Assembly: GCA_018969975.1 (NCBI GenBank) | Contig: JAGWXI010000021.1 | Location: 1-35,601, forward strand | Source of the DNA: Burkholderiales bacterium | GTDB taxonomy: Bacteria > Pseudomonadota > Gammaproteobacteria > Burkholderiales > Burkholderiaceae_C | Direction: 5' to 3' | DNA: 35,601 bases | Shown here: positions 3,520-24,600 of the stretch, one piece after another | Position numbering within the stretch: the stretch's first letter is position 1 | Layout of the letters: every line of letters starts with the position of its first letter | Program-made: the position numbers and the translations under genes | The notes under the pieces: model-generated | What the model was told of the DNA's origin: nothing | Seen by the model: only the letters and a program-made list of their open reading frames with translations | The model's database searches: none

Positions 3520-5142
3520 ATGCTGGAGAAAGTAAATGAAATCTATCCAATGCGCTACACCGCATTTTTGGCATCAGTAGTTTTATTGTTCTTCTCACTA
3601 GTAGGGGCTAGTTTTACCGGCTTAAGTGGTTGGTGGCCTGTTTTATTTTTGTTTCTTAGTTTGGTTGGACTGCACGACCTCCAGCAAAAACACCATGCGA
3701 TTTTGCGCAACTACCCGGTAATTGGGCATTTACGTTTCTTGTTGGAATACATCCGGCCTGAAATTCGTCAATATTTTTTAGAGTCTGAAACTGATGCCGC
3801 CCCTTTTTCTCGTGCACAACGCAGCTTGGTCTACGCCCGCGCGAAAGGAGAAGGCGACAAACGTCCTTTTGGAACGCAACTAGATGTCAAAGCAATTGGC
3901 TATGAATGGATTAACCATTCCATTGCAACGACCGCGCTTGAAAGCCATGACTTTCGCATCAGCGTGGGTACAAGCGCTTGTACCCAACCCTACAGCATCA
4001 GTCGCTTCAATATTTCCGCGATGAGTTTTGGTGCATTGAGTGCAAACGCGGTATTGGCACTTAATTTAGGAGCAAAGCGCGGTGGTTTTGCGCATGACAC
4101 AGGAGAAGGTTCGATCTCGCGCCACCATCGCACACATGGTGGTGACTTGATTTGGGAAATTGGCTCAGGCTACTTTGGCTGTCGTGATGCGCACGGCCGA
4201 TTCAGTCCTGAGCATTTCACTGAGAACGTCAAGTCAGCGCAAGTCAAGATGGTTGAAATCAAGCTAAGCCAAGGTGCTAAACCCGGGCATGGTGGTGTTT
4301 TACCGGGAGCCAAAGTTACCGAAGAAATTGCACAAGCGCGCGGTGTTGGCATTGGTGAAGACTGCATTTCGCCCTCTAGCCACAGCAGTTTCACTACGCC
4401 GCTTGAATTGATGCAATTTGTTCAACAACTTCGGGAATTAAGCGAAGGCAAGCCTGTTGGAATAAAGCTATGCATAGGCCACCCTTGGGAATGGTTTGCA
4501 ATCGTCAAAGCCATGATGGAGAGCAAAATTTATCCAGACTTTGTGGTGGTCGACGGTGCAGAAGGTGGCACTGGTGCAGCACCTTTAGAGTTTTCTGACC
4601 ATATGGGCATGCCATTGCAAGAGGGTCTGCGCTTGGTTCAAAACACATTGGTTGGTGTTGGTCTGCGCGAACACATCCGTGTAGGTGCAAGTGGCAAGAT
4701 CATCAGCGCATTTGATATGGCGCGTGCCTTTGCTTTGGGTGCAGACTGGTGCAATAGTGCCCGTGGCTTTATGTTCGCTCTAGGATGCATTCAAGCGCAA
4801 GCTTGCCATACGGGCAACTGTCCTACTGGTGTTACCACCCAAGATCCTAAGCGCCAGATGGCCTTGGTCGTTCCCAGCAAAGCTGAGCGTGTTGAAAATT
4901 TTCACCGTAAAACGATGCAAGCGCTGCAAGAATTATTGGAAGCAGCTGGCCTGCGAGACCCGAGTGAATTTTCACCACGCCACATCATGCAAAGAGTGAG
5001 TGAAACGCAAGTCTTGCACTTATCCGAACTGGTAGACACCTTGGCACCGAATGCCTTGCTACAAAAAGATATCAGTAGCCTGCCCGTCACTTACCAAGAC
5101 TGGTCGCTAGCGAGTGCTAGTCGATTCAGTCTCAACGCTTAA
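3520..5142 (+). CDS. Membrane-anchored FMN-binding glutamate-synthase-domain protein
   Basis: This 540-aa protein resembles stand-alone GltS-domain proteins such as Bacillus YerD. Two hydrophobic segments at about residues 14-32 and 38-52 anchor it in the membrane. The rest is the FMN-binding beta/alpha barrel of the glutamate synthase large subunit (GEGSISRHHR, VEIKLSQGAKPGHGG, VDGAEGGTGAAP). The 3Fe-4S motif is intact as C423-x5-C429-x4-C434, the spacing of true GltB. It lacks the glutamine amidotransferase domain, so classical glutamine-dependent synthesis is not expected. Its electron partner and substrate are unknown. ATG 3520 follows AAGGAG at 3506-3511. It is third in the ParA-like operon and its TAA overlaps the stop of the convergent 408-aa gene. 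Confidence 0.9.
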   Translation: MLEKVNEIYPMRYTAFLASVVLLFFSLVGASFTGLSGWWPVLFLFLSLVGLHDLQQKHHAILRNYPVIGHLRFLLEYIRPEIRQYFLESETDAAPFSRAQRSLVYARAKGEGDKRPFGTQLDVKAIGYEWINHSIATTALESHDFRISVGTSACTQPYSISRFNISAMSFGALSANAVLALNLGAKRGGFAHDTGEGSISRHHRTHGGDLIWEIGSGYFGCRDAHGRFSPEHFTENVKSAQVKMVEIKLSQGAKPGHGGVLPGAKVTEEIAQARGVGIGEDCISPSSHSSFTTPLELMQFVQQLRELSEGKPVGIKLCIGHPWEWFAIVKAMMESKIYPDFVVVDGAEGGTGAAPLEFSDHMGMPLQEGLRLVQNTLVGVGLREHIRVGASGKIISAFDMARAFALGADWCNSARGFMFALGCIQAQACHTGNCPTGVTTQDPKRQMALVVPSKAERVENFHRKTMQALQELLEAAGLRDPSEFSPRHIMQRVSETQVLHLSELVDTLAPNALLQKDISSLPVTYQDWSLASASRFSLNA

Positions 5143-6365
5143 TCAGCCGGTCTTGGATATTGGATAGGTCGTTCACGCACCACGGGTGCGGGCGCTGGTG
5201 CAGGCGTAGCAGCCTGGGCGGCGGCGGCACGGGCTTTTTCGGCAGCACGTTCGGCAGCTGCAGCCCGCTCTGCTGCTAGGGCAGCTGCTTTTTCGGCGGC
5301 GGCCCTTGCTGCCGCTCTATCTGCAGCAGCCTTATCGGCAGCAGCTTTATCGGCTTGGGTTCTCTCTGGTGGTTTTTCAGCAGGTGCGAAACGCATGGCT
5401 GCGGCTTTTTCTGCTGCAGCTTTTTGTGCATTCAGGCGCTCTGCTGCCGTCGCTTTTTCTGCCGCTACTGCGCTATCAGCTGCTTTTTGTGCGGCCAAGG
5501 CGGCATTGCTAGCACTCTTGACAGCTTGTTCATAGGCGGAAGCCTGTAATTTCTCTCGGGCTTGCATGCTTTGGTTAATTTCTGTGCGCATGGCCTGCAT
5601 GCTTTGGTTGGTGTCAGCACGCATTTTTTGGATTTCAGTCAACACCAGTTGAACAGGTTGCTGCTTGATTTTGTCTGCATCCATATTCGCAGCAATCTTG
5701 GCATCCATAGCCGCCAGAGATTTGTTCATAGCGAGCAACTTAGCGTCAATCAGCTTGTTGTTTTGATCGGCAACCAAATTAGGCATGTTGGCCATTACGC
5801 GGCCAATTTCGTCTAAGCGGTTTGCAACATTCTTTTGTGTGGTGTTGAGTTCTGTTTGTTTTTCTGTGATTTCAGAAAAGTCAGAATTAGTTTTGCCAAT
5901 CGCACTGATACTTCCATCGATCTCAATCATGCGCTTAGACATAGCGTAAGTCATCACATCCAATTCTTTGATCGATTTAGTCATCTTCAAAGTGATGCCA
6001 AAGAAAAAGCCCATAGCCACCAACAGACTTAGGCAGATGGCGCCAAGCATGATGCGTGAATGTAGAACGTTACGGCGGTTGGTTTCTTCAATTTTTGCCA
6101 CCACCATGCGCATCGAACTGCTGACATCTGCGGCAATGGATGCAGAACGCGTTGATACCTCTGCTGAATCTAAAACGACCGAGGTCAGTTCTTCAATTTG
6201 ACGCGCCACTTCATTGCTATCGGCAGACAGGCCTGCAATTTCAGTCAAACGGTCAGCGGTTGCATCGATATCAATAATCGGTTCAGCTTCGCTGGTGGAC
6301 TCGGCTTGGTCTACCGGACCTTCCAGCACGGCCGTGTCTTCGGTGTTTTGTTCTGCTTCTGCCAT
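5139..6365 (-). CDS. Ala-rich single-pass membrane coiled-coil protein, flagellar operon
   Basis: I do not recognise a family for this 408-aa protein. The N-terminus (1-100) is acidic and then helical, with an MCP-like Ser/Ala/Val pattern. One transmembrane segment spans about residues 105-125. A long helical region follows (130-290) with MQAMRTEINQSMQA-type repeats. The tail (about 290-395) consists of Ala/Lys/Glu/Arg repeats like the TolA stalk and ends in a Pro-rich segment. Topology is probably N-in, with the long stalk in the periplasm. It starts 2 nt after the stop of the 135-aa gene and is the last gene of the fliO operon. No enzymatic motif is visible. It might be a structural or anchoring part of the motor or pole, which is inference from context. 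Its stop overlaps that of the convergent GltS-domain gene. Confidence 0.75.
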   Translation of the reverse strand: MAEAEQNTEDTAVLEGPVDQAESTSEAEPIIDIDATADRLTEIAGLSADSNEVARQIEELTSVVLDSAEVSTRSASIAADVSSSMRMVVAKIEETNRRNVLHSRIMLGAICLSLLVAMGFFFGITLKMTKSIKELDVMTYAMSKRMIEIDGSISAIGKTNSDFSEITEKQTELNTTQKNVANRLDEIGRVMANMPNLVADQNNKLIDAKLLAMNKSLAAMDAKIAANMDADKIKQQPVQLVLTEIQKMRADTNQSMQAMRTEINQSMQAREKLQASAYEQAVKSASNAALAAQKAADSAVAAEKATAAERLNAQKAAAEKAAAMRFAPAEKPPERTQADKAAADKAAADRAAARAAAEKAAALAAERAAAAERAAEKARAAAAQAATPAPAPAPVVRERPIQYPRPAD

Positions 6366-6367
6366 GG

Positions 6368-6775
6368 TTAACCCTTTGATTGTTTTTCTAAAACATCGAG
6401 CCGCACGTGCAGCGTTTTGATTTCTTCGGTTAGTTTTTCGGTACGTTTACGCAATACCTCTATCCATGTATCGACTGGAGGAGGCATCTCTTGAGCATGA
6501 ATCTCATCCAATACAGGCAATGCTTCTAGCTCATCTAGCACCGAAACGCTGGGAGTTTCTTCAAGCTTGGGAGGAATAAGAGCGGCTTGCTCGGGCGCTT
6601 TGCTAGCCTCAGGATCGCGCAAGGTCGGTACCTGGGCTAAATCCTTGGCAGAAAGCCCTGTTGCGTCTTGCGGCACATTGGGTAAGTGAAGACGCGGGAG
6701 TTGTTCGGCCTCGAACGCAGGCTCGAACGTCTCATTGCCTTTATTGACGATATGGTCAGCTTCGGAACTACTCAT
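6368..6775 (-). CDS. Hypothetical acidic protein with C-terminal coiled coil
   Basis: This 135-aa soluble protein has no family I recognise. Residues 1-100 are acidic and Pro/Glu/Leu-rich and probably disordered. Residues from about 104 to 133 form a predicted coiled coil. It has no signal peptide or membrane segment. It lies between the SPOR-domain gene (23 nt gap) and the 408-aa membrane protein gene (2 nt gap), so the three are very likely one transcription unit. It may be a cytoplasmic linker between those two membrane proteins, which is inference from gene order. Confidence 0.65.
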   Translation of the reverse strand: MSSSEADHIVNKGNETFEPAFEAEQLPRLHLPNVPQDATGLSAKDLAQVPTLRDPEASKAPEQAALIPPKLEETPSVSVLDELEALPVLDEIHAQEMPPPVDTWIEVLRKRTEKLTEEIKTLHVRLDVLEKQSKG

Positions 6776-6798
6776 TTGTTGGTCCTTATCTTGATCTA

Positions 6799-8313
6799 TC
6801 AGGCCTTGGCAAGTTGCGCTTTCACAGACTTAACGCTGCGCAACCACCCCTTAGCAAGCAAGGGGTTCGATTTCATAAATTGATCCGCCTGCGTTTTGGT
6901 CTCAAACGGGCCAGCAAGAAGAATAAAGTAGCGTTTGTTGGTGTCTTTTTTTCTGACCTGCATCACACGTGCCGAGGCATAGGCCGGATGGCTGCGTTTG
7001 AAGTTAAGCATCTCTTCCTCGACATCAAATGCAGAAAGCTGCAAAACAAAACCCTCCTCGGGTAATTTACTTATCCAATCTGCATCAGATACTTTGTCGG
7101 ATTGAGTTGCGTTTGTTTGAGGCTCTTTGTCGATAGATTCTCTTTTTTCTACCCTTGGAGGAATGTCCATGGCAGCAGAGGCTACCTCGTTTGCGGGCGT
7201 TGGACTTGATGCTACTTGTTCCGGTGCATCAGAGGCGACTGGCTCGGGTGAACTAGCGGCAACAGGCTCTGGCACGCTGGCCACTGGCATAGGCGCCGGG
7301 GCTGCCGCTGTACCGCGTAACAAATATTTCTTAAAGAGCTCCGCCTCTTGCAACAACATGTCCTTATACATATAGCCAAAAACAGCCATTGACATGAGCA
7401 TTACCAATAAAACAATTCCCCAACGCGGCTTACTTGTGCTGCGTTTAAAGGTATTTGTTTCTGCATTCAGCGTGGATGGGTTTGCAGTGGTACTGGCGAA
7501 AGTGCCCAAAACAGGGGCACCTAGTTCAGGCTCACGCGGCGTGTGTGCATCTAAGTCGTTACCTAAAGCAACTTGCTGCGGTTGGATTGGTTGGGACGCT
7601 GGTGCTGGGGCGGGTGCCTTAGGGGGCACTGGCTCTACCACTTCAGAGGTGGGAGCTGGCTGGGCTTGGGATTTTTTTCCAAATCCTGGAATACGCCAAG
7701 ATGTTTTCTTAGGCATTTGGAGTTGCTTGACGGCCTCTTGCGAGTCGTCGGGTGTCATGGATTGCAAAACAGGTGGCTGCGATGCAGGCGCAGGTTCTGG
7801 TGCGTCAGCTACCCAATCTGACAGCACCCGCTTCGGTTCTCCCGCTTTGGTTTCGACTTCCCATTGCAAAATATTTTTCCCAAACGCTTCGAGTTTTTTC
7901 TGGTAATTGCCAGCGCTGTTGATGAGCAAAATCACACTGATATTGCCTGCTGGAAATCCATTGACCAATCGCGCTAAGAGTTGCAACTCGAAGTCTTGCA
8001 TCAAGATAGAGTCACGAAACAGCAAAAAGCGACGAGGCGCTAATTTCGCTTCTTTTTCAGTAGCTTGGTTGAGCGTAAGCTCTGACAAAATATCGTTGAA
8101 GGTTTGTACCAACTGTTCTGAACTCGTGGAGGTACAGAATTCAATATTCTTTTCGCCTGCTGCACGCAAACGTTCTTCAAACAAACTGCCGTAGAAATCC
8201 AGAACCAAATCATGCTGGCTGAGAACAGCTAAATTAATGCTCCCCTCCGTCAAAGACTTCAGAAGAATTTCAAACCGCAATCGGTCGCCGGGGCTTTGAA
8301 AAATATCTGTCAT
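6799..8313 (-). CDS. SPOR-domain membrane protein of the flagellar operon
   Basis: This 504-aa protein has DamX-like architecture. An N-terminal cytoplasmic domain (about 1-170) looks like a P-loop-type fold but has no Walker A motif. A Pro/Ala/Gln-rich linker follows. One transmembrane segment lies at about 298-316. A Pro/Ala/Val-rich periplasmic spacer leads to a C-terminal SPOR domain (about 418-500: GFVLQLSAF, RYFILLAGPF). SPOR domains bind peptidoglycan lacking stem peptides, as found at septa and new poles. The gene lies 18 nt after flhB and shares its operon. A role in placing or holding the flagellum at the pole or in peptidoglycan is inferred. It is not damX by context, since the aroB/dam neighbourhood is absent. 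Confidence 0.82.
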   Translation of the reverse strand: MTDIFQSPGDRLRFEILLKSLTEGSINLAVLSQHDLVLDFYGSLFEERLRAAGEKNIEFCTSTSSEQLVQTFNDILSELTLNQATEKEAKLAPRRFLLFRDSILMQDFELQLLARLVNGFPAGNISVILLINSAGNYQKKLEAFGKNILQWEVETKAGEPKRVLSDWVADAPEPAPASQPPVLQSMTPDDSQEAVKQLQMPKKTSWRIPGFGKKSQAQPAPTSEVVEPVPPKAPAPAPASQPIQPQQVALGNDLDAHTPREPELGAPVLGTFASTTANPSTLNAETNTFKRSTSKPRWGIVLLVMLMSMAVFGYMYKDMLLQEAELFKKYLLRGTAAAPAPMPVASVPEPVAASSPEPVASDAPEQVASSPTPANEVASAAMDIPPRVEKRESIDKEPQTNATQSDKVSDADWISKLPEEGFVLQLSAFDVEEEMLNFKRSHPAYASARVMQVRKKDTNKRYFILLAGPFETKTQADQFMKSNPLLAKGWLRSVKSVKAQLAKA

Positions 8314-8331
8314 GCTGGCTTCATTTCCGTC

Positions 8332-9480
8332 TTAAGAATGCATTAAGACGCCATTGGCATCGAATTTCATTTGATCAGGAATTTTGGGGTCGGGCTTGAT
8401 CACTTCTTGGCCTATTCCGTAAGACTGATTCAAACTAAACACATACGCAATAACCTGCGCCACAGCGTGGTAGAGCGCCTCGGGGATCGGATGATCCAAC
8501 TTAGTCGTGAAGTATAAGGCGCGGGCTAGTAATGGCGCCTCAAAAAGATAGACCCCATGCTTGGTTGCTTCATCACGAATACGCGCTGCCAATCCGTCAT
8601 CACCCTTTGCAACCAAAATAGGCGCGCCGTCGCCATGGGGGTCATACGATAGCGCTACTGCAAAGTGGGTTGGGTTGGTGATGACGACGTCAGCATCTTT
8701 GACTTTTGTCATCATCTTGTTGTTCAAAATTTCACGTTGGCGACGGCGAATCTGACCCTTGACCTCGGGGTTACCTTCGGAATTCTTCATCTCGTCTTTG
8801 ACCTCTTGTTTGGTCATTTTGAGTTTTTTATTCAATTGGTGTCGTTGCAAGGGAACATCAACCAAAGCCACCAATACCAAGCCCAGACTTAGCCAAAAAC
8901 AAGAGTCCACAATGATGGTGCCTGCTACCTTTACTGCCTGGCCCAAATCCATTTGGGAAATATTGGTCAAGTCGTTCAAATTGTTCATGACCGACACCAA
9001 CAAAATAGCACCAACCACCAAAAACTTTGCGACCGACTTACCCAGCTGAATCAGTGCATCTGGTCCAAACATGCGCTTTAACCCACTCAGCGGGTTGAGC
9101 TTGCCGAAATTAGGCAAGGCGAGTTTGGGAGAAAAGATAAAACCGCCTGCCAACGTAGTCGATAAAGCAGCAATTACTGCCATGATGGCTATAAGAGGTA
9201 GAACAATCACAAAACCATCGACGATGGCACTACCAAAAATAGCAGGTAGAAGTTCCGCTTTATCGGTAATTTTTCGATCAAATTGCAATTGGTTTTTGAA
9301 CAGATTTCCCATGCTGTTGAACAAATACTGTCCCATCATGGTGAAAAACAAGGTCGCTAAAACCATCATTGCAGCTGGCGCAAGTTCTTGTGAGCGCGCA
9401 ATTTGGCCTTCCTCCCGCGCTTTATTGAGTTTTTGCGCCGTTGGTTCTTCGGTTTTGTCTTGGCCGCTTTCTTCTGCCAT
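8332..9480 (-). CDS. flhB: Flagellar export switch protein FlhB
   Basis: FlhB is the export-gate component that switches substrate class from rod/hook to filament. The 382-aa protein has four hydrophobic segments between about residues 35 and 210. A cytoplasmic domain follows, with the self-cleavage motif NPTH at 269-272 intact within VVITNPTHFAVALSY. The N-terminus has the usual QDKTEEPTAQKL. Length is normal for the family. It follows fliR by 13 nt. In many proteobacteria flhB sits with flhA, but here it ends the fliOPQR string and is followed by three uncharacterised genes. No flhA is in the window. Confidence 0.97.
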   Translation of the reverse strand: MAEESGQDKTEEPTAQKLNKAREEGQIARSQELAPAAMMVLATLFFTMMGQYLFNSMGNLFKNQLQFDRKITDKAELLPAIFGSAIVDGFVIVLPLIAIMAVIAALSTTLAGGFIFSPKLALPNFGKLNPLSGLKRMFGPDALIQLGKSVAKFLVVGAILLVSVMNNLNDLTNISQMDLGQAVKVAGTIIVDSCFWLSLGLVLVALVDVPLQRHQLNKKLKMTKQEVKDEMKNSEGNPEVKGQIRRRQREILNNKMMTKVKDADVVITNPTHFAVALSYDPHGDGAPILVAKGDDGLAARIRDEATKHGVYLFEAPLLARALYFTTKLDHPIPEALYHAVAQVIAYVFSLNQSYGIGQEVIKPDPKIPDQMKFDANGVLMHS

Positions 9481-11710: not shown

Positions 11711-12463
11711 ATGGAATTAAGAGAAATTCTGAAGAACTTGGTAGATGCTGGGGGCACTGGCGGACTCAACTGGCATCTGCACGCTTTTAATTCTCAAAAG
11801 CGTTGGCAAACTACAGTTGCTTATATTGAGAACTTTTTATTGCACTGCAAGCCACGCCATTCCCATCTGCTGTTAATAGGATGCAGTGCTGGTTGGATGA
11901 TGCCTAGTTCTTGGCTTAGCCAATTCGAACTTATCGATGCTTACGACATTGACCCACTTGCGCAGTACTTATTTAATTGGCGCCATGGCAGCGCACTTCG
12001 CAAAAGCGCAACGCAACTATTGCACCACCGCCAAGATGCGCTGGCGCATCTACCGGAAATCCTCTTAGAACATCCCCAAGCGAGCCTCTGGTTTGACAAT
12101 GTGTTGGGCCAACATCGCTACCGTGTTCGCAATGAAGCGCAGGTTGAAAACGAACTGCGCAGACTCAAAACAACGCTTCTTGGACGCGACTGGGGAAGTG
12201 TGCATGACTTGCTCTCGGGTCCCAGCCATGCTGCGCTCGATCCCCAAGTGTGTCTCCACGATGTACGCCAACGCGTGTATCCGTATGCGCTTGATTCCGC
12301 GTACAACCAATCTTTGGTGCAGAGTTTGTATGCGCAAGGTATTTGGTTTGACCATCTGACCGGTTGCGTATTTTCAGACGACACCCCCACCACGCTGATT
12401 CCTTGGGAATTCAAACCCCGTTATTGGCATTGGTTACAAGCAGGCTGGCAGTCACCAAACTAG
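11711..12463 (+). CDS. Hypothetical protein, possible SAM-methyltransferase-like fold
   Basis: This 250-aa protein is the only plus-strand gene inside the fli block, between fliJ (convergent) and fliO (divergent). Residues 50-85 (HLLLIGCSAGWMMPS, then LIDAYDIDP) resemble motif I and the acidic motif II strand of class I SAM-dependent methyltransferases. The G-rich loop is not a clean GxGxG, so the assignment is tentative. There is no signal peptide or membrane segment. Trp, His and Gln are frequent. No strong promoter is visible: TTGACA at 11613-11618 lacks a well-spaced -10. It occupies a place where fliK often sits but shows no FliK features. It may modify flagellar or surface proteins, which is speculation. 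Confidence 0.65.
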   Translation: MELREILKNLVDAGGTGGLNWHLHAFNSQKRWQTTVAYIENFLLHCKPRHSHLLLIGCSAGWMMPSSWLSQFELIDAYDIDPLAQYLFNWRHGSALRKSATQLLHHRQDALAHLPEILLEHPQASLWFDNVLGQHRYRVRNEAQVENELRRLKTTLLGRDWGSVHDLLSGPSHAALDPQVCLHDVRQRVYPYALDSAYNQSLVQSLYAQGIWFDHLTGCVFSDDTPTTLIPWEFKPRYWHWLQAGWQSPN

Positions 12464-12482: not shown

Positions 12483-12920
12483 TCACTTCAAATTAAACAG
12501 CATCACGCCAGTAGCATCCATCTCGCGTTGCTCGCGCTTGGCGGCTGCGTCCCGAATGCGGCGAACATCTTGTTCGTGCAGTGTTTCCATTTGGATACGT
12601 TTTTTTTCAGCTGCTAGTAAGTTGCCTTTGAGTATCTCTAACTCGAACGTAGCATGTTCAATATCCACATTGACCCGAGAAATCAAGGTTTGTATCTGTT
12701 GCAGAAACCCTCTAAAGTTCACTGTCTCTTGCATGCTGAGGGACTTCTTTTCAGCTTCTATAGAGCGGGCAAGATAGTCTGCGTATAGCGCCTCCATGCG
12801 ACTGCGGCTTTGCTCTAAGCTTTTAATTTTTTCACGGCCTCTGACCAACGCTGCCATAGCTTGGTCGCATTTTTCTTTGGCTTTCTTTGCCAATATAGGC
12901 CACGCTGCGCGGGGTTTCAT
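12483..12920 (-). CDS. fliJ: Flagellar export chaperone FliJ
   Basis: FliJ is the coiled-coil stalk that inserts into the FliI hexamer and connects it to FlhA. The 145-aa protein is almost entirely helical and highly charged, forming a two-stranded antiparallel coiled coil as expected. Sequence conservation in this family is low, so the call rests on length, composition and position directly after fliI. Its ATG overlaps the fliI stop by 4 nt (ATGA). It ends 19 nt from the convergent gene at 11711-12463. Confidence 0.88.
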   Translation of the reverse strand: MKPRAAWPILAKKAKEKCDQAMAALVRGREKIKSLEQSRSRMEALYADYLARSIEAEKKSLSMQETVNFRGFLQQIQTLISRVNVDIEHATFELEILKGNLLAAEKKRIQMETLHEQDVRRIRDAAAKREQREMDATGVMLFNLK

Positions 12921-14236
12921 GACATCAATTGCTTGAGGTTACCCAACGTCACTTCATAGTCTTCGCTGATGTGCATGTCTTGACGCAAGAACATGACCAT
13001 TTGTTCGCGCAAGCGTATGGCTTCATCTAATTCGGGGTTGGTGCCTGCCTCATAGGCACCAACTTGCACCAAATCAGCGTTTTGTTGGTAGACAGACCAA
13101 AGACGCCTAAACCGATTGGCTTGGTGCATAGATTCGCTGTCAACCAAGGTTTGCATCACCCGTGAGATGGAGCCATTCAAATCAATCGCAGGGTAATGCG
13201 CTTGGTCGGCTAAAGCCCGCGAAAGCATGACTTGTCCGTCCAAAGATGCGCGGGCAATGTCAACGATTGGATCGGAGGCATCGTCCCCCTCTGCCAGCAC
13301 GGTATAGATCGACGTGATCGAGCCGTGCCCGTGTCGGCCAACGCCACCACGTTCAATCAAATTGGGCAACAAACCGAATACCGAAGGGGGGTAACCTTTG
13401 GCAGTGGGAGGTTCTCCAATTGCCAAACCAATCTCGCGCTGTGCATGGGCGACACGCGTCAAACTATCACACAGCATCAACACATTCATGCCTTTGTCGC
13501 GAAAATATTCTGCGACCACATGGGTCATATGCGTGGCTTTGAGTCGCAATACGGGAGAAACGTTAGCGGGTGCTGCAATCACTACCGATTTGGCCAAACC
13601 TTCATCACCCAGAGATTCACTGATAAAAGCCTGCACTTCGCGGCCTCGCTCACCGATCAAACCAATCACAACAATATCGGCCTTGGTGAAACGGGTCAAC
13701 ATGCCGAGCAAAATACTCTTGCCCACACCTGAGCCAGCGACTAAGCCAATGCGCTGTCCTTGACCTACCGTCAAAACTGCGTTGATCGCCTTCACGCCAA
13801 CATCCAAGATAGATTGGATAGGACCACGCTCCATAGGATTGAGCGGTCGGCCCAAAAGAGTCATTTGGTCTGGCAATTCAGGCAAGGGGCGCCCATCTAA
13901 GGGTTGACCACGGCCGTCGATCACGCGTCCTAGCAAACCATCTCCTAAACGAACATGACCTGAGTTGCGCATGACACGCACCATGTCGCCTGGGCCTACA
14001 CCCACAGGATCCGTAAAGGGCATCAAATACAAAGTGCGGTCGTTGAATCCAACTACCTCGGCTTCTATGCGGTGGCCGTGTCGACCCAGAACTTCGCAAC
14101 ACGCGCCCAAAGGCGCCATGATGCCGCGCGTCTCTAAAGTCAAGCCGACCAATCGGACCAAGGTGCCGCTGCGTTGCGGATCAGGCACGCGCAACTGCTC
14201 TAGCGTAGTTTCTACTTCTTGGGCGAAATCAAGCAT
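12917..14236 (-). CDS. fliI: Flagellum-specific ATPase FliI
   Basis: FliI is the export ATPase related to the F1 beta subunit. The 439-aa protein has Walker A GSGVGKS at residues 168-174, the family motif GLIGERGRE at 192-200, and Walker B-type LMLCDSLTR near 255. The FliI-type YPPSVFGLLPNLIERGG segment follows. Length is typical. It begins 15 nt after the FliF-tail-like gene and is coupled to fliJ. Confidence 0.97.
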   Translation of the reverse strand: MLDFAQEVETTLEQLRVPDPQRSGTLVRLVGLTLETRGIMAPLGACCEVLGRHGHRIEAEVVGFNDRTLYLMPFTDPVGVGPGDMVRVMRNSGHVRLGDGLLGRVIDGRGQPLDGRPLPELPDQMTLLGRPLNPMERGPIQSILDVGVKAINAVLTVGQGQRIGLVAGSGVGKSILLGMLTRFTKADIVVIGLIGERGREVQAFISESLGDEGLAKSVVIAAPANVSPVLRLKATHMTHVVAEYFRDKGMNVLMLCDSLTRVAHAQREIGLAIGEPPTAKGYPPSVFGLLPNLIERGGVGRHGHGSITSIYTVLAEGDDASDPIVDIARASLDGQVMLSRALADQAHYPAIDLNGSISRVMQTLVDSESMHQANRFRRLWSVYQQNADLVQVGAYEAGTNPELDEAIRLREQMVMFLRQDMHISEDYEVTLGNLKQLMS

Positions 14237-14251
14237 GGCAGTTAGTAACCG

Positions 14252-14887
14252 TTATTGTGTTTGGATCATGCTACGAATGACGCTGGCAACACGGCTTTGG
14301 TCGTTTTGCACCACCATGCGCACCACGCCCACTTTGTCTTCATAGCTATTAGCGTTATTGAGGAGTTCTGGCGGAATAGTCGGCTTTTTAGTTTTTGCTT
14401 GCTCGCGTTTCATGCGTGCTTTGACATCTGCCAGCGTCTCGCCCTCCTGCATTTCAATTTCGCCACTCCCCAAAGGCGCATCTTCTGTTGCTTCTTCGTT
14501 AGAGAGGGCTGCATTTTCATCTGCTAGTGCGCCTTCTGTCGCCAATTCCTCAACCATTGCATCTGCCACAACAGGCTCTTCAATTTGCGCATCGACGCGG
14601 GCCTCGTCTGCCTCCAGATCCACCTCGGGCAAAGGCTTGGGCTTAGGTTTGTCAGGTACTTCCAAGAGCAATTGTTGGAACCGAATTTGGTCATTGCGTT
14701 GTGCCTCAGCCAGCATGCTGACGCGCATCATTTCTAGCTGCACTGCTTCGATAGCTTCTTTTTGCATATCTTCGGTCGTCATCTCACCGTTGACGATGTG
14801 CATCACAAATGGCCGAACCACGGTAACCACGATCACCATGAAAATCAAACCCATCAACAAAGTGTTGATGACGTCAGGAATAAACAT
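14252..14887 (-). CDS. Mini-FliF: membrane protein with FliF-like FliG-binding tail
   Basis: This 211-aa protein lies between fliH and fliI. Residues 4-27 are one membrane helix ending VVRPFV, matching the end of FliF TM2 (LVVRPMV, FliF 518-523). The middle is acidic and Glu/Ala/Pro-rich. The C-terminus (144-159 and 171-211) parallels the FliF C-terminus: EIEMQEGETLADVKARM against EIEIQEGESLEEVKARM, then LLNNANSYEDKVGVVRM against LLSTANSYDDKVALIRM. By hand I count 19 identities over the last 39 FliF residues. That FliF segment binds FliG. The ring-building domains of FliF are absent. I chose ATG 14887 because GGGAGG lies 6 nt before it. An upstream start at 14944 would run 71 nt into fliH. 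It probably anchors or competes for FliG. Not a known named gene to me. Confidence 0.85.
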   Translation of the reverse strand: MFIPDVINTLLMGLIFMVIVVTVVRPFVMHIVNGEMTTEDMQKEAIEAVQLEMMRVSMLAEAQRNDQIRFQQLLLEVPDKPKPKPLPEVDLEADEARVDAQIEEPVVADAMVEELATEGALADENAALSNEEATEDAPLGSGEIEMQEGETLADVKARMKREQAKTKKPTIPPELLNNANSYEDKVGVVRMVVQNDQSRVASVIRSMIQTQ

Positions 14888-16250
14888 CGTCGCCCTCCCG
14901 GCCATCGTGGTTATCTTCCTCTGAAGGCTCGTCATGCTTGTCAACGAATTGCTCAGAGCGAGGTGATATTTCTTGCAGCGCCAAACTTCTGGTCAAGGCC
15001 TCAAGCCTGTTTTCTATTAGATCTTCCACCACCATATCGTTTGCAATCACACGCACACTTCCCGACGCCAATTGGGGAACGGCCTCTAGGTGAATGCCTT
15101 GCAAACTGAGAGTGGTCAATTTTTCAAGTAATTTTTTGTCTTCGGGATGAAGTTCTACGACGACGGCTCCCTTGATAGGGTGGTCTAGTTCGTTCAAACA
15201 GTTTTGCACCAAGGCATCAATCGCTTGCGGTGACGTGCGCAATTCATGTTTGGCAATATGCTGCGCCATATTCAAGGCTAGGCGTTTTAAAGGATCAAAA
15301 AATCTTTGTGGATCTTGCAACAAATCGTGCAGGCCTTCCGACACCTGCGACAGCACCTCGCATTGGGTGGCGACCTCTTGCTCCATCGCTTCACGCGCTT
15401 GGCGTTCACCCTGTTCTACACCTTGCGCAATGCCTTCTTCTAGTCCTTGTGCCCTACCTTTTTCCAAAGCTTCTTGCACGGCCTCTTCTAGTCCAAGCCC
15501 CTTTCCCTCCTCTAAACCCTGGGCTTTGCCTGCTTCGAAACCGAGTGCCCTACCCTCTTCCAAGCCTTGCGTCTTGCCTTCATCAAAGCCTAGGGCCTTT
15601 CCTTGCTCGATTCCTTGCGTCAAACCCTTGGCAAACTCTGCTTGTTCGCGTTGCGCAACTTCCGCAAGCGATATGCCAGGCGCTGGTTCAATATGTTCAG
15701 GCTCGGCTTGGGGCTCTTGCTGCGTTGGTTCAGATTCTTCAAGCGCCACAGCGTCTAATGCTTCTTGCGTTGCTTCTAGGTGCGATGGCGGTGTGCTTAA
15801 TTCTTCCGTATCAGAATGAAAGTTGGATTTTGTAGCCGAGAGATCATCTACAAATCGACCAGAGCTGGTTTTATCTAACAAGCCTTTGGCGAGTAACACC
15901 TTAATCCGTCTTGCAGCCGCGTAGTCATCCATTACAAAAGGCAAATGCGCATTGACAGATGCAGTGGTTTTAGCTGGAGTTAGATCGCTGTCAAAGAGGG
16001 CTTGTGCCTCTTGTTCTTGCAACAACGCCAAAGACAGCCTGGCTTGTTCAGTTAAGGTTTGCGTAACAGAGGTATAGGTATCTGTTGAAAAGCCATCTGG
16101 GTTTTCGGGGTAAGGCGCATCCGCAAAATCAGGGCGCGCGTCTTCGCCCCACGCTGTTGCGCCATATTCCAAATCTGAACGGCGCAATTGCAATTGAGAA
16201 GCGGTCTGCCACGCAGGGCCAGAGCGCTTTGCCACCACATGGTTATACAT
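14874..16250 (-). CDS. fliH: Flagellar assembly protein FliH (enlarged)
   Basis: FliH is the FliI-binding stator of the export apparatus. At 458 aa it is about twice the size of the roughly 235-aa enterobacterial protein. An N-terminal extension (about 1-200) is Glu/Ala/Pro-rich and unassigned. Next is an exceptional glycine-every-fourth-residue helix: 12 consecutive GxxxG steps at about 209-253 and 5 more at about 265-281. The C-terminal FliH domain (about 300-420) contains HIAKHELRTSP and VELHPEDKKLL. I prefer ATG 16250, with AGGTGG 8 nt upstream, over GTG 16262, which has no ribosome binding site. It overlaps fliG by 8 nt and the mini-FliF start by 14 nt. Confidence 0.92.
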   Translation of the reverse strand: MYNHVVAKRSGPAWQTASQLQLRRSDLEYGATAWGEDARPDFADAPYPENPDGFSTDTYTSVTQTLTEQARLSLALLQEQEAQALFDSDLTPAKTTASVNAHLPFVMDDYAAARRIKVLLAKGLLDKTSSGRFVDDLSATKSNFHSDTEELSTPPSHLEATQEALDAVALEESEPTQQEPQAEPEHIEPAPGISLAEVAQREQAEFAKGLTQGIEQGKALGFDEGKTQGLEEGRALGFEAGKAQGLEEGKGLGLEEAVQEALEKGRAQGLEEGIAQGVEQGERQAREAMEQEVATQCEVLSQVSEGLHDLLQDPQRFFDPLKRLALNMAQHIAKHELRTSPQAIDALVQNCLNELDHPIKGAVVVELHPEDKKLLEKLTTLSLQGIHLEAVPQLASGSVRVIANDMVVEDLIENRLEALTRSLALQEISPRSEQFVDKHDEPSEEDNHDGREGDDVYS

Positions 16251-17277
16251 AATCGCCGCCACCTAAGACCAATTCACCCGAATCGGATAACTGTCTAGCC
16301 ATTCGCATGATCTTCTTTTGGGCCTCTTCCACGTCGGACATACGTTGGGGGCCTTTGGCCTCCATGTCGTCGCGGAACATGCCGCGCGCACGCTCGGACA
16401 TATTGTCGAAAAAGCGGGCTTGGCACTCTGGACTTGCGCCTTTCAAAGCCACCATCAGCATATCTGGCTCGACCGTGCGCATGAGCACCTGGATACCTTT
16501 GTTGTTCACACCTACCAAGCTCTCAAAGGTGAACATATTGTCTTGAATCTTGAGCATCAACTCGGGGTCGATTTCATTCAAGCCATTCATAATGCTCGAC
16601 TCCAAGGCTGTCTTGGTCAAGTTCATGATCTTGGCGGCAGCCACCACACCACCAAAACTAGATGATTGTGAAGATGCGCTCTTGGAGAACTGCATTTTCA
16701 TAATGCCTTCGAGTTCGGCCATGGCAGAGGGTTGCACGGTGTCCAAACTAGCCACACGCTGAATAACTTCCGCGCGTGAATCGGGTGGCAAAAAGTTCAA
16801 CACATCCGCGGCCACTGTGGCTTCTAGTAAAGACAAGATGATGGCAACGACTTGTGGATGCTCTGCTTTGATCATGTCTGCAATGCCTCGGGCATCCATC
16901 CACGTCAAAATTTCTAATCCTTTGCTGGCTTGTCCAGGCATGATGCGGTTCAAAACAGAAGCCGCTTTGTCATCGCCTAGGGCGCGGCGCATCACGTTTT
17001 CGACATAGTCTGTGCTACCCATACTCAAAGATGACTGTCTCTTCAAATGGTCGACGAATTCATCGAGCACCACGTTGACAGCTTCTTGCGAAAAATCGGC
17101 CGCAGCCACCATGGCAGCACCTAGGGCTTGAACCTCTTTAGGATTCAAAAATTTAATGATGTCAGCTGCTTGCTCTTCCCCCAGTAACAACATCAACACG
17201 GCCGCACGTTGGGTGGAGGTAATGTTGGCCATCTCTGCACGCAGTGCTTCCGACATTCCCATATTGATATCAGCCAT
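16243..17277 (-). CDS. fliG: Flagellar motor switch protein FliG
   Basis: FliG is the C-ring protein that couples the MS ring to the stators. The 344-aa protein has the N-terminal FliF-binding domain (TSTQRAAVLMLLLGEE), the middle-domain motif AEHPQVVA for FliM binding, and the C-terminal torque helix with charged residues (RFFDNMSERARGMFRDDMEAKGP, cited by position near 285-310). Length is normal. It follows fliF by 31 nt. It would be the natural partner for both FliF and the FliF-tail-like protein encoded two genes downstream. Confidence 0.97.
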   Translation of the reverse strand: MADINMGMSEALRAEMANITSTQRAAVLMLLLGEEQAADIIKFLNPKEVQALGAAMVAAADFSQEAVNVVLDEFVDHLKRQSSLSMGSTDYVENVMRRALGDDKAASVLNRIMPGQASKGLEILTWMDARGIADMIKAEHPQVVAIILSLLEATVAADVLNFLPPDSRAEVIQRVASLDTVQPSAMAELEGIMKMQFSKSASSQSSSFGGVVAAAKIMNLTKTALESSIMNGLNEIDPELMLKIQDNMFTFESLVGVNNKGIQVLMRTVEPDMLMVALKGASPECQARFFDNMSERARGMFRDDMEAKGPQRMSDVEEAQKKIMRMARQLSDSGELVLGGGDYV

Positions 17278-17308: not shown

Positions 17309-19411
17309 TTATTGACGTATCAAATTCTTCAGTACGCCAGCCACGCGGGTTGAATCTTCAGCCACGATCATACGAATAAGCGCCACTTTGTCATCATACG
17401 AATTAGCCGTACTGAGCAAGTCAGCAGAAATAGACTGCTTCTTAGGTTTCATGGCTGCCATACGCGCTTTCACTTCTTCTAAAGACTCGCCCTCTTGTAT
17501 CTCAATTTCTTCTGACGATTCACCCTCAGCTCCACTTTGTGCAGCCAAGGCATCTGCCTGTGCTTTGGCTGCTAGAGCCAGCGCTTCGGCCTCAGCCTTT
17601 GCAGCGGCTGCAAGCTGGGCTTCTTCGGCCAAGCGCGCTGCTTCTTGTGCAGCCAGCATGGCTTCTTCTGCAATGCGGGCAATCTCTGCTTCGTGTGCTT
17701 CTCGAGCTTGTTGCGCTGAGAGTTTGGCGGCAGCAGACTCTGCCGTAGCCACCTCGATCGCCATTTTGGCCTCCGCATTTGCAGCTTCGGCAGCAGCAGC
17801 AGCCACTGCAGCAGGGTCGACCTCGGGGGCTGTGAGGCGACGCACCATCGGACGCACTACTAACAACAAGACCAGTAAGAAGATGGCTCCCACTACACCA
17901 GCATTGACCATCACCTGGTAATTTTCATCACGGTACCAAGGCACGATTGAAGGGTCGTACTGGGGTTCAAATTTGGTTGCGACAACTGTCACGACGTCGC
18001 CACGTGTTTCGTTGAATCCGACAGCGCCTTTGACCAATTGGTTCAAACGCTCCAACTCTTCGGGCGTGTAAGGAATGGATGTTGGAGCTGCGGAGCCATC
18101 GGCAGGCTTTTCCACCTTGGTGCCAGCGGGAATTGGCCGCTCATTGATCAACACACCGACACCAATTTTGGTGATCGTGCCCATCGCCCCTTTGGTGTGG
18201 CGCACGGAGCGGTCGAGTTCATAGTTTTTAGTGCTGCGTGCAGTCACTTGCACGCCTTTTTCACTCACACCTTTTAAGGGATCTGAATTTGACTGGGTGG
18301 TAGCTTGTGGATTGACCTGTGCAGGTGGTGTATTGGCTAGCGAGCCCGGCAAACCAATCGCATCGCGCAAGGTGTTACGGTCTTCTACAAATAATTCAGA
18401 ACGTGTCTTTGGCCCCTTGTCTTGGGAGTCAAAGTCTTCTGTCGTGATTTCGGTTTGGGTGAAGTCCAAACTCATACTAACTTGTGCACTCACATTGGAC
18501 TCACCAACGATAGGGGCCAATAGTTGAATCAATCTTGTGCGATAGAGATCTTCCATCTGCTGCTTCTGTGTCAATTGCGCAGAGGTCAAACCCAAGGGCT
18601 GCTCGACCAACATTTCGTTCATCAGGCTGCCAAAGTTATCCACCACTGAAACATTTTCTGGTGCCAAATACGGCACGCTAGAGGCGACCAATTGAATAAT
18701 GGCTTGCACATTGGCTGAGGAAATAGTGCGCCCGGGCAAACGGGTGATGATCACAGAAGCCTTGGTAGGTGCGCGGTCGCGCACAAACACACTTTGCTTG
18801 GGAGCGGCCAAATGCACGCGGGCAGATTTGATACCGCCAATTTGCACAATGCTGCGCGAGAGCTCTTGCTCCATCGCGTTGTTGTAGCGCACCTGCTCCA
18901 TAAATTGGCTGGTGGTCATAGCAGGCATGTCTTTGAGGTTGTCCATGCCAGAGACTTCTGTACGCGGCAAACCTTTAGAAGCCAGCAACATACGGGCTTC
19001 TTGATAACGGGTAGTAGGCACTGACAACTGCCCTGTTGCGGGATCTACCTCTGGTTTGAAGTCTGCAGTCTTCAAGGTTTCAATAGCAATTTGCTTGTCT
19101 GCATCGTTGAGCATCAACACCAAAGGACGGTAAGGCGTTGGTTTCATCGAGGTGAAGAAAACCGCAACAGACATCAACAACATGAAGATCACCATGAAAG
19201 GCAATGCTTTGCGCACGCTGGGTTGGCGCAATACATCCATCACCAAAGCGCCAGGGCCTTCTTTGGAATTGATCCATGCTGGTAATTTAGAGCTATCCAC
19301 TTTGAGCGCTGTACCAGAGGCATTGTTGGCGCCTGGCGTGGCGGTTGGGTTGTCAGACGCTTGGCCCGAGGGCAAGGTCATCGCGTTCATATTGAGAGTG
19401 TCTGTTGCCAT
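17309..19411 (-). CDS. fliF: Flagellar MS-ring protein FliF with long Ala-rich linker
   Basis: FliF forms the MS ring. At 700 aa it is longer than the usual 550-570. It has an N-terminal cytoplasmic tail, TM1 at about 72-88, periplasmic ring-building domains (about 95-490, including the VRYNNAMEQELSRSI and ARVHLAAP segments), TM2 at about 503-522, and the FliG-binding C-terminus at about 660-700. Between TM2 and that tail lies an unusual Ala/Glu/Lys-rich helical insert (about 534-625), predicted to be a long coiled coil. The segment EIEIQEGESLEEVKARM and the last 40 residues are closely matched in the mini-FliF at 14252-14887. It starts 20 nt after fliE. Confidence 0.97.
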   Translation of the reverse strand: MATDTLNMNAMTLPSGQASDNPTATPGANNASGTALKVDSSKLPAWINSKEGPGALVMDVLRQPSVRKALPFMVIFMLLMSVAVFFTSMKPTPYRPLVLMLNDADKQIAIETLKTADFKPEVDPATGQLSVPTTRYQEARMLLASKGLPRTEVSGMDNLKDMPAMTTSQFMEQVRYNNAMEQELSRSIVQIGGIKSARVHLAAPKQSVFVRDRAPTKASVIITRLPGRTISSANVQAIIQLVASSVPYLAPENVSVVDNFGSLMNEMLVEQPLGLTSAQLTQKQQMEDLYRTRLIQLLAPIVGESNVSAQVSMSLDFTQTEITTEDFDSQDKGPKTRSELFVEDRNTLRDAIGLPGSLANTPPAQVNPQATTQSNSDPLKGVSEKGVQVTARSTKNYELDRSVRHTKGAMGTITKIGVGVLINERPIPAGTKVEKPADGSAAPTSIPYTPEELERLNQLVKGAVGFNETRGDVVTVVATKFEPQYDPSIVPWYRDENYQVMVNAGVVGAIFLLVLLLVVRPMVRRLTAPEVDPAAVAAAAAEAANAEAKMAIEVATAESAAAKLSAQQAREAHEAEIARIAEEAMLAAQEAARLAEEAQLAAAAKAEAEALALAAKAQADALAAQSGAEGESSEEIEIQEGESLEEVKARMAAMKPKKQSISADLLSTANSYDDKVALIRMIVAEDSTRVAGVLKNLIRQ

Positions 19412-21609: not shown

Positions 21610-24600
21610 TTAACCGCCCAAGAGTTTGAGCACAGTTTGTTGGCTGGTGTTGGCCTGAGCCAGCACAGCGGTTGCCGCTTGTTGCATGATTTGAGTTTTT
21701 GCCAACTCCGTGCTTGAAGAGGCGTAGTCTGCGTCTTCAATACCACTGCGTGACGTAGACAAGTTCATCGACACATTGGTCAAGTTGTTGATCACATGGT
21801 CGAGACGGTTCATCACCGCACCCATGGTGGCACGTGTGGCGTTGATTTTGTCCATGGCGGAGTCCAACTTGGTCAAGACATCTGACGCGCCTTCACGCGT
21901 ATTGATGCGCACCGTGCGTTGTTCCACGTTCTTGTCAACGTCGCCCGTAATCTCACCCGTGATAGGGCCTTCTTGGCCAAAGTCCGCTAGGTCAATCGTT
22001 ACCGTCTGATTAGCGCTAGAGCCCACTTGGAATGCTAAGCGGCCAACCTTGGGAGGATCCATATCTGAACTGGAGCGACCACCGTAGCTGCCCTCGTTAA
22101 AGCCCAAGGCAGAGAAATTGCTGTTGGTGCTAAATCCATCTGCGCCAGAGGAGACGATAAATGGCTTGGCATTGGCCAATAACAATTTATCCAACTCAGA
22201 AGGGGGCGCGCCAATGGGTTTTGGCAAACCGGGTAAGTTAGGCGGTTGCGCAATCATGCGCACAGTGCCGTACACCGTCCGTGCGGTAGAGCTGGTTGCT
22301 GTGGCATCGCGGATACCCGTAATCTGGTTATTGCCGTAACTATTAGGGGTCACTTCGTTGATTGAAATGGCAGAAGCAACAGAAGTTCCGCCCATGTTTG
22401 CGCCATTGATTTCAAACGGCGATCCGGCAACGGTTGAAGTAATAGTCAAAATATCTGTAGCCCTAGAGACGCTGATATTTTTTAAGGCTCCCGATGTAAT
22501 TGCCGCATTAATAGCAGTTTCTAGAGCAGTAGCCAATGCGGTTGCAGTGGCTGTTCCAGCCGCAGCCGACGTCACTTGTACGCCGTTAATAGTTACGGAC
22601 GCGGTGTCTGTAGTTGCGTAAGTACCAGAAGAACTAATTTGGACAGATTGCGCAACCGCTCCACCTTGGTCAAGGCCAAAGTTAGCAGCAGACAGGTCTT
22701 TGACGTTGGAGTCAAACCATACAGCCAGATTGCGACCGTCAGACTTCAGGCTAATGCCATTGCCGTTATTGACAGCTGTCACGCCATGCGCGCCGGTGCG
22801 CTGGTTGATAGCCTCAGCCACTTTGGTCAAACGGTCGGTGGACGATTCGTTTTGAACAAACTGGACCTTCACTTCTGTTCCATTGATGAACAAGGAATGG
22901 AAGGTTGGAACTGACAAAACAGGCAAGCTGGTGACTGTTTGTGTGCCTTTGATCTCAGCGCCATTGGCTTTTGCCAAAACGCCAGTCAAGGGGGTTTGTG
23001 AATTTATCGCCGCAGCAATGGCAATGGCGCTCGAGGCGGGGTCGCTGCTGGTGGCAATCGTGCTGGAGTCTATATCGCCTGCGCTAGAAGAAGCTGGGAT
23101 TTTGACGCCGTTGATCACCAAGTCATCTAAGCCTAGGGGCTTGAAGTCGGCCTTGGCATTGGCTTTGACTGTGGTGGCCGTTACTGTGGTGGTGGCGTTG
23201 CTCTTTGAATTGGTCAAAGTAAAAGACGTACCAGCGGTGTCGGCCGTCAATAAGATCTCGCCCTTGTTCCGCCCAGCAGTCGCTGTCACAGGTAAGGTGG
23301 TGTTGGCGTTTACCAATGCAACCAAGCCGTTGCGCACCGCTTGTGTCGTCAGGCCATCGGTGGTGTTGGCGGTGTAAGTAAACGTCGTCCCGTTGAGTGT
23401 CAAGGAAAAAGTATCCCCTGCTACAGGCACCGTGCCGGTGTAGGTCACGCTCTCAACCTGAGCGACATTGGGCGCCACGATAGCGCGCGGTGCTGTGTTT
23501 GCTACCGCCTCGTTTTTGCTGAAGTTTCCAGTAATCAATCCTGCGCGCTTAATGTCTCCCGTGCTGTCTGAACTCAACACCACGGGTGCAGGAATCTTGG
23601 ACTCCAGAGAAATCGTGCTCGACTGCACGCCTGTACGCAAACCAATGCGCGCCCCAAAGTCGTCTGCGTTGGCGTTTGTCTCAAAACTCACCTCAATATT
23701 GCGACCATCTGCCGCGGTGAGCGTAATGCCTTTGGCATCGACACCCGTGTCGATCGCTTTGACTCCCGTTTTGTCGCTGATCAAGTTGATGGCACGGACC
23801 ACGTTGGCGCGCGTTTCACGCGAGTTGTTCAACACGGTGGTGATGTCTGCGCTGGCGTAGCCATTGATAAACACGGTGCCTTTGACAACCGAGGTTCCCG
23901 ACATGGCGCGTCCGGTCATCAGGTTTTCGTTGACTTTGGCAAACACACCGGTTCCAGCCGAGGAGATGAAGTGCTCGGCCGTGGTGTCAACAATTGCTGT
24001 CAAGCCGGTAGCACCCGTCTGAATAACCGTCTCGGGCATATTGCCCTCGGTGGGCGCGTATTTGATTGTCAGGTTGGAGTTGCCCGGTATGTATGTCACT
24101 GTGCGCCCAGTGCTTGGGGCGAAGAGAGAGCTTGCTTGAAGGGCGGCAGCAATTTTGGTAGCCGCTGCAGCGGTGGTTGTGTCAAGTGCTGTCAGCGTCA
24201 CGCTCACACCAGCAACTGTCATTACTCCTGGAGCAGGGGTACCGCTCAAGGTCAGCATCTGGGTCTCGCCTTGCGTCACGCCGGTGGCAACTGCCATACG
24301 GTTGATTGCCGCAGCCTTGGCGATCGCACTGCCCGCAGCATTGCCCACGGGGGAGACTTTGTCATCCGTGGCGTAGGAGGCGCCTATATCGATACTGTTG
24401 ATTTTCAAGTCCCCAGCGCGCAGTGCAGGAATGCTTCCCTCGACCGAGACGCTGTAAGAAAACGCGCGACTGGTCAAAGTGGCGGCTGTGGCATCGGATT
24501 TTTTGAAGGCATAGACCAAGTCATCGGAAATGACTTTGGCGTTTGAGCCCGAGTCTTTGATGAATGTGATCGAACCAGCCGGTGCTCCTTGCGTCACCAC

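Follow-up and report, generated by a model that had tools for sequence, protein, structure and literature searches.

Why should a flagellar operon that already encodes a complete FliF encode, on a separate small protein, a second copy of the FliF tail? The question is raised by a gene for a protein of 211 aa, designated here as mini-FliF, which lies between fliH and fliI in the window, i.e. the whole stretch of 35,601 nucleotides that was analysed. The genes fliE, fliF, fliG, fliH, fliI and fliJ were identified around it by Pfam matches. The open reading frame of mini-FliF runs on the minus strand from an ATG at 14887 to a stop codon at 14252-14254, and its start overlaps the end of fliH by 14 nt. 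The motif GGGAGGG before this ATG can be read as a putative ribosome-binding site. The features of the locus are as follows.

12917..14236, minus strand: fliI (Pfam), starting 15 bp past the mini-FliF stop
14252..14887, minus strand: mini-FliF, the gene of the second FliF tail, 211 aa, between fliH and fliI (ORF and BLASTP)
14255..14443, minus strand: FliF tail of the FliG-binding type, residues 149-211 of mini-FliF (BLASTP against its own FliF; tail profiles)
14444..14662, minus strand: variable acidic linker, residues 76-148 (AF2, with low confidence at 84-143; dN/dS)
14663..14776, minus strand: helix of residues 38-75, following the membrane helix (AF2, alignment)
14792..14881, minus strand: membrane helix of residues 3-32, similar to FliF TM2 and with VVRPFV near its end (AF2 secondary structure, hydropathy, TM2 profile)
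14893..14899, minus strand: GGGAGGG, within the 3' end of fliH
14874..16262, minus strand: fliH, long, 462 aa (Pfam)
16243..17277, minus strand: fliG, the one gene for FliG detected in this genome (both Pfam matches fall within it)
17309..19411, minus strand: full-length fliF, 700 aa (Pfam), with its own tail retained at about 17312-17500

Between fliJ and fliO, an ORF of 250 aa that has no Pfam match is encoded on the plus strand (11711-12463).

The C-terminus of mini-FliF was compared by BLASTP with the last 61 residues of the FliF encoded in the same window, and 30 of 61 residues were identical (49%, E 7e-15); a whole-genome tblastn search extended the similarity to residues 6-209 (37% identity to FliF, E 2e-20). 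An earlier sequence-only reading of this locus had described a truncated FliF paralogue on the basis of motifs such as VVRPFV and ANSYEDKV/ANSYDDKV, all of which occur in the sequences exactly as quoted, and of 19 identities counted by hand in the last 39 residues of FliF; a recount by eye gave 19 identities over a span of 40 residues. Its statement that the ring-building domains are lacking was borne out by Pfam, which assigned mini-FliF to no family and gave no match to YscJ_FliF or YscJ_FliF_C, both of which are found in its own FliF. NCBIfam returned a single row at chance level (E 0.14), no Pfam or NCBIfam family was obtained for the other second tails described below, and a PDB sequence search yielded nothing for mini-FliF and chance matches alone for the tail profile.

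The FliFs of 13 relatives without a detected second tail were used to build this profile. It matched all 78 second tails tested (L137 and L141, found later, are not among them) with 31-70 bits, compared to 8.9 bits for the best of 1560 shuffled and 4.8 for the best of 78 reversed sequences; in a set of 11,000 ORFs taken from the loci retrieved, with overlapping loci included, none other than FliF and the second tails exceeded 10.5 bits. The similarity is not confined to low-complexity sequence, a possibility raised in the sequence-only reading, as 78 of 78 second tails were likewise matched when the profile was restricted to the final 40 residues of FliF and so left out the repetitive linker (23-54 bits, the worst 23.0; best of 1560 shuffles 8.2). 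On these sequence comparisons, homology of the second tail to the FliF tail is established.

Upstream of the tail, the membrane helix of mini-FliF scored 18.2 bits with a profile of FliF TM2. The 64 anchored proteins of the window's genus ranged from 0.9 to 19.3 bits, with medians of 15.5 and 14.2 for their two subtypes, compared to 12.2 for the best shuffle; within the same set of 11,000 ORFs the best one outside the clade (10.7 bits) was itself located in a FliF of another flagellar type. The helix is thus probably homologous to FliF TM2. AlphaFold2, run with 15 sequences, placed helices at residues 3-32, 38-75, 152-167, 173-178 and 182-210, so that the tail is predicted as helix-break-helix, with low confidence for the stretch 84-143. 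Since the mean pLDDT was 65 and the pTM 0.24, the model was used for secondary structure alone.

The locus could also be a partial copy that has no function and is decaying, or it could have arisen as an error in assembling the sequence. The variable linker fits decay, and nothing else does. The dN/dS ratios of 15 chosen pairs were well below 1, amounting to 0.01-0.07 for the first 60 residues (15 of 15 pairs computable), 0.00-0.10 for the tail (14 of 15) and 0.07-0.31 for the linker (8 of 15), where one tail and seven linkers could not be computed owing to saturated dS and many other dS values exceeded 1. The gene is under purifying selection. It is moreover found in dozens of genomes, single-contig ones such as G080 and G423 among them. 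Decay or artefact is therefore hardly credible, and was rejected on the grounds of genus-wide presence and dN/dS. The tail homology, the probable FliF-like TM2, the location in the same operon and the purifying selection together give good support to the view of the sequence-only reading, namely that mini-FliF is a truncated paralogue of FliF which corresponds to its C-terminal part, comprising the second membrane helix, the linker and the FliG-binding-type tail, and is devoid of the ring-building domains.

We infer that the genus of the window is Limnohabitans, given that the second-tail protein of genome G184 is the same as that of Limnohabitans sp. Jir61 (NZ_NESD01000002; L012, L051). The 84 genomes of this genus comprised 59 with matches to both FliF and a second tail, 11 with the second-tail type alone, one with FliF alone (at a contig edge) and 13 with neither; the two kinds of match were separated by frame length and position, some FliF frames are cut by contig ends and many genomes are incomplete. 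Among the 70 genomes with a second-tail match 65 loci were read, and after a fragment (L124) was dropped 64 distinct proteins remained. All 64 carry one hydrophobic helix each. Their genes follow fliH in 63 of 64 cases and precede fliI in all 64, and in the 63 cases with fliH their start overlaps its end by 8, 14 or 17 nt (57 cases) or is separated from it by a 1-nt gap (six cases). Two N-terminal subtypes occur, starting with MFIPDVINTLLMG... (n=25) and MIDWVN...LRT... (n=39). One fliG per genome was found in all 16 genomes tested. Four genomes of the genus (G381, G417, G424 and G461) gave no tail match in spite of a completeness of at least 96%, which may reflect lost flagella or missing contigs; in G381 the fliI gene is cut by a contig end. 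In locus L090 the FliF coding sequence is broken into frames of 260 and 523 aa, possibly owing to a sequencing frameshift.

What such a tail may do is suggested by its counterpart in FliF. The C-terminus of FliF wraps domain D1 of FliG (PMC11087270), structures show it in the inner portion of the C ring together with the N-terminal domain of FliG (PMC11087270, PMC11528121), and the contact is supported by coevolution across species (PMC6079021). The second tail probably binds the N-terminal domain of FliG as well, judging from its homology, and would dock there at the junction of the MS and C rings. A protein that has a FliF-type tail but lacks ring domains should bind FliG while contributing nothing to the MS ring. 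The second tails would in this way supply docking sites for FliG subunits not paired with a FliF, the FliG ring and with it the C ring could exceed the number of FliF subunits in the MS ring, giving a wider or a fully occupied rotor, and in Limnohabitans the protein would also tie these FliG subunits to the membrane. The addition of attachment points for FliG, one of the roles put forward in the sequence-only reading, appears to be the most plausible reading of mini-FliF. Extra docking tails for FliG, beyond those that FliF serves, are the best explanation of the locus, to which we would give close to even confidence; that the second tail works specifically by serving FliG without a FliF partner may be so, with confidence slightly short of even.

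Published work leaves room for such an arrangement and also provides a caution. In E. coli the copy number of FliG equals, and is restricted by, 34 FliF (PMC10128058), while a FliF33:FliG34 motor has been proposed elsewhere, with the remark that FliF:FliG "need not be 1:1" (PMC11087270). C rings comprising 38-40 subunits are reported for Campylobacterota (PMC10655999, PMC11870540). For H. pylori the outer ring of FliF is assumed by the authors to match the 39-fold C ring (PMC10655999), on which view a C ring could be larger without any additional tails.

The tail has also diverged from its FliF counterpart. Across the 49 genomes with all three genes, the mean identity of the tail core was 65% for the second tail, 81% for the FliF tail and 82% for the FliG N-domain (the latter in 48 of 49 genomes), and changes such as LIR to VVR and D to E are consistent among the second tails. 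This drift could point to altered or different binding and speaks against extra docking. A tail reused for another partner, for example a polar-placement or export factor, with loss of FliG binding, would account for these systematic changes, and also for the members of two other genera (g158 and g261) whose genes are not on the contig of fliF. At ten positions of the core (L, A, N, D, K, R, R, V, A, I) the majority residue is nevertheless that of FliF, and we know of no other receptor for a FliF-type tail; a new partner was consequently regarded as quite improbable.

A second form of the tail was found in a sister genus (L017-L019; MAGs labelled Oxalobacteraceae or Burkholderiales). Its 21 genomes included 15 with FliF and a second tail, one with FliF alone and one with the second tail alone, both of these at contig ends, and four with neither. 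Here the second tail is encoded directly 3' of fliF, and fliG is the next gene in 14 of 15 cases (in L134 the contig ends first). None of the 16 proteins shows a membrane helix (L142 is cut at its start). The whole stop-to-stop frame measures 66-93 aa in 10 of 16, and in the others the tail is preceded by a longer linker or by a repeat of the PAKTA type. The stress of the sequence-only reading on membrane attachment thus does not apply to the family as a whole. The part common to the family is the FliG-binding-type tail and not the anchor, and its common function should accordingly be sought in the tail, in occupying FliG rather than in anchoring it. The single fliG, the FliF that retains its own tail, the tail homology, the conservation and this form without a membrane helix were all counted in favour of extra docking.

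The short frames adjoining fliF are also what would be expected of an assembly factor, i.e. a chaperone or, as the sequence-only reading also considered, a competitor of FliF that binds FliG before or during assembly and sets the timing or the number of C rings; FliF and FliG of C. jejuni are mutually dependent for their stability (PMC6946799). Such a role appears unlikely, as all 64 distinct proteins of Limnohabitans are anchored in the membrane and a stable competitor expressed at an equal level would be expected to harm docking.

A FastTree phylogeny of 146 distinct tails placed the second tails from both genera, 74 in total, together in one clade apart from every FliF tail; this single origin rests on one SH-like value (0.989) from a tree of about 60 residues. 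Shared ancestry of the second tails of Limnohabitans and the sister genus is likely on this basis. When 399 genomes of the order were sampled, 12 gave a profile match, and nine of these, the genome of the window included, contained a second tail. The other eight belong to four genera: g158 (G643, G738, G873), g261 (G767, G795, G823), g221 (G756) and g279 (G824); a further candidate, G849, showed a doubtful fragment only (E 0.0026). The FliF-type tails of these four genera represent three further families and are carried by other membrane proteins. In G756 the tail is part of a one-helix protein encoded between fliF and fliG, and in G824 it is carried by a one-helix protein encoded near a putative flhB (read from its translation). 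In the five genomes of g158 and g261 in which FliF was found as well, the two genes are on different contigs, and the second-tail proteins contain between two and four hydrophobic segments (in L171, five exceed the cut-off). This tail profile gave no FliF in G823 and G824; the other second-tail genomes of this sample carry a FliF with its own tail beside the second one. In the tree the tails of these four genera fell on the side of the FliF tails and outside a supported FliF clade (0.895), so that a separate origin may be suspected.

Two gene neighbourhoods of these lineages were recorded by eye. Near the multi-helix second-tail gene of g158 and g261 a similar-looking protein of 196-246 aa with an N-terminal helix is encoded (L176:4878-5474, L173:755-1345, L183:7473-8213), and the copy in L176 has no Pfam match. 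Downstream of flhB, both L180 (4686-9501) and the window (5139-9480) encode, judged by size and order, a protein of 469-504 aa, one of 130-135 aa and a larger one; the window's protein of the first class has a SPOR domain, and in L180 the second-tail gene is the next one after this set.

The window also encodes a giant flagellin of 1431 aa (21610-25905, minus strand), with Pfam flagellin domains at its ends only. Flagellin frames of at least 1000 aa were present in all 16 tested genomes of Limnohabitans, in seven of the eight from the sister genus (the remaining one gave no match), in all three of g261 and in two of four of g158 (of the others, one gave a fragment only and one no match), while the flagellin of G756 has 870 aa and that of G824 at most 304 aa. 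Among 15 comparison genomes without a detected second tail (G382, G161, G310 and G601 included, the doubtful G849 left out) only two reached 1000 aa, both in genus g124. Counted by genus, 4 of 6 second-tail genera reached 1000 aa versus 1 of 6 others (Fisher p 0.24); at a cut-off of 800 aa, chosen after the data had been seen, the counts were 5 of 6 and 1 of 6 (p 0.08). The link is not significant and is confounded by kinship, and it is a lead only. Giant flagellins form thick filaments in two marine species (PMC6248924). In g124, flagellins reach 1000 aa in two of four genomes although no second tail was detected there, which counts against the extra-docking explanation.

A broader scheme was considered, in which the FliF tail is a portable docking module placed, probably more than once, on separate proteins of several Burkholderiales lineages (membrane proteins of one, two or about four helices, or a tail by itself), uncoupling FliG from the number of FliF; motors with giant flagellins would have a C ring larger than the MS ring, with the surplus FliG held by second tails. 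As a whole this scheme is possible yet doubtful. By current understanding the FliF ring limits the number of FliG, and how the symmetries of the MS and C rings relate is still argued over (PMC11087270, PMC10128058). A natural and conserved second source of FliF tails would offer a handle on whether FliG can be added beyond FliF, and could explain motors that attach more rotor subunits than the membrane ring provides for. Carried by different small proteins, the tail would also be a general way of hooking accessories onto the rotor.

Among known flagellar proteins mini-FliF resembles most the C-terminal part of FliF itself, with a membrane helix ending in VRP, an acidic linker and the FliG-binding-type tail, but it has neither the first membrane helix nor the ring-building domains and is encoded beside a complete FliF. 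Its closest functional analogue is FlgV of H. pylori and C. jejuni, likewise a small membrane accessory of the motor at the junction of the MS and C rings in motors with large C rings; in H. pylori it forms a 21-fold ring beside the 39-fold C ring, and it supports motility (PMC10655999). By its published description FlgV differs in its size (104 and 118 aa), its location between flhG and fliA, its two membrane helices and the GFFxG motif in the first of them, and it is described as a partner of FliF (PMC10655999). Mini-FliF lies between fliH and fliI and has one hydrophobic helix and no GFFxG. SwrB of Bacillus is comparable by description too, being a monotopic membrane accessory whose genetic links to FliG and FliF concern maturation of the basal body; it is conserved only in Bacillus, and the portion of the article consulted mentions no FliF tail (PMC4526659). 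The link of FliF and FliG is also altered in FliF-FliG fusions, whose motors assemble and rotate (PMC10128058). Fusion fixes the ratio of FliF to FliG at 1:1, which a separate tail would relax.

The example of FlgV suggests a further role for mini-FliF, namely a supplementary ring or struts at the MS/C junction which bind FliG or the FliF/FliG interface and stiffen the transfer of torque, the ring subunit numbers being unchanged. A helix similar to FliF TM2 could pack beside those of FliF, and giant flagellins, with presumably heavy filaments, in all tested Limnohabitans genomes would suit a stiffened motor. Such bracing was judged rather unlikely: the sister form has no membrane helix, so that bracing from the membrane is not general, and the available text on FlgV mentions no FliF tail (PMC10655999). 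No truncated, short or FliF-like paralogue or FliG-binding accessory of this kind was described among the literature matches listed, which cover few subscription papers. This agrees with the claim of the sequence-only reading that no protein of this architecture had been described, though FlgV as a functional analogue had gone unnamed there. What is new is a known module, the FliF tail, in a new use, where a small accessory, FlgV, is already known.

The reach of the survey is set by the tail profiles, which matched 18 of 399 genomes of the family and 12 of 399 of the order, while FliI is present in 327 of the 399 family genomes. The profile thus reaches only this flagellar clade, and absence elsewhere, including the 387 unmatched genomes of the order, is not to be read from it. 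Within the clade, five related genera (g38, g87, g92, g124 and g82) had FliF alone in all 13 matching genomes, and no second-tail ORF was seen in their fetched operons. A profile of 25 FliFs of the family's commoner flagellar type gave at best 10.2 bits for the FliF tails of the present clade and 6.1 bits for the second tails (best shuffle 7.0); since it misses the clade's own FliF tails, it is uninformative about the second tails. FliF, FliG and FliI were found together in 25 of 26 fetched loci of the commoner type (L145 is cut off), with fliF adjoining fliG, and none of the 26 contained an ORF matching the window protein. The interval between fliG and fliI measured less than 800 nt in 24 of 25 loci and 1032 nt in L150 (between stop-to-stop frames).

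FliH is unusually long in these lineages, with 462 aa in the window, a stop-to-stop frame of 722 aa in L113 and frames of 526-540 aa in g124, the genus that has giant flagellins in two of four genomes and no detected second tail. In genome G382, contigs C39 and C51 encode two types of FliI, 73% and 56% identical to that of the window, and this genome probably has two flagellar systems.
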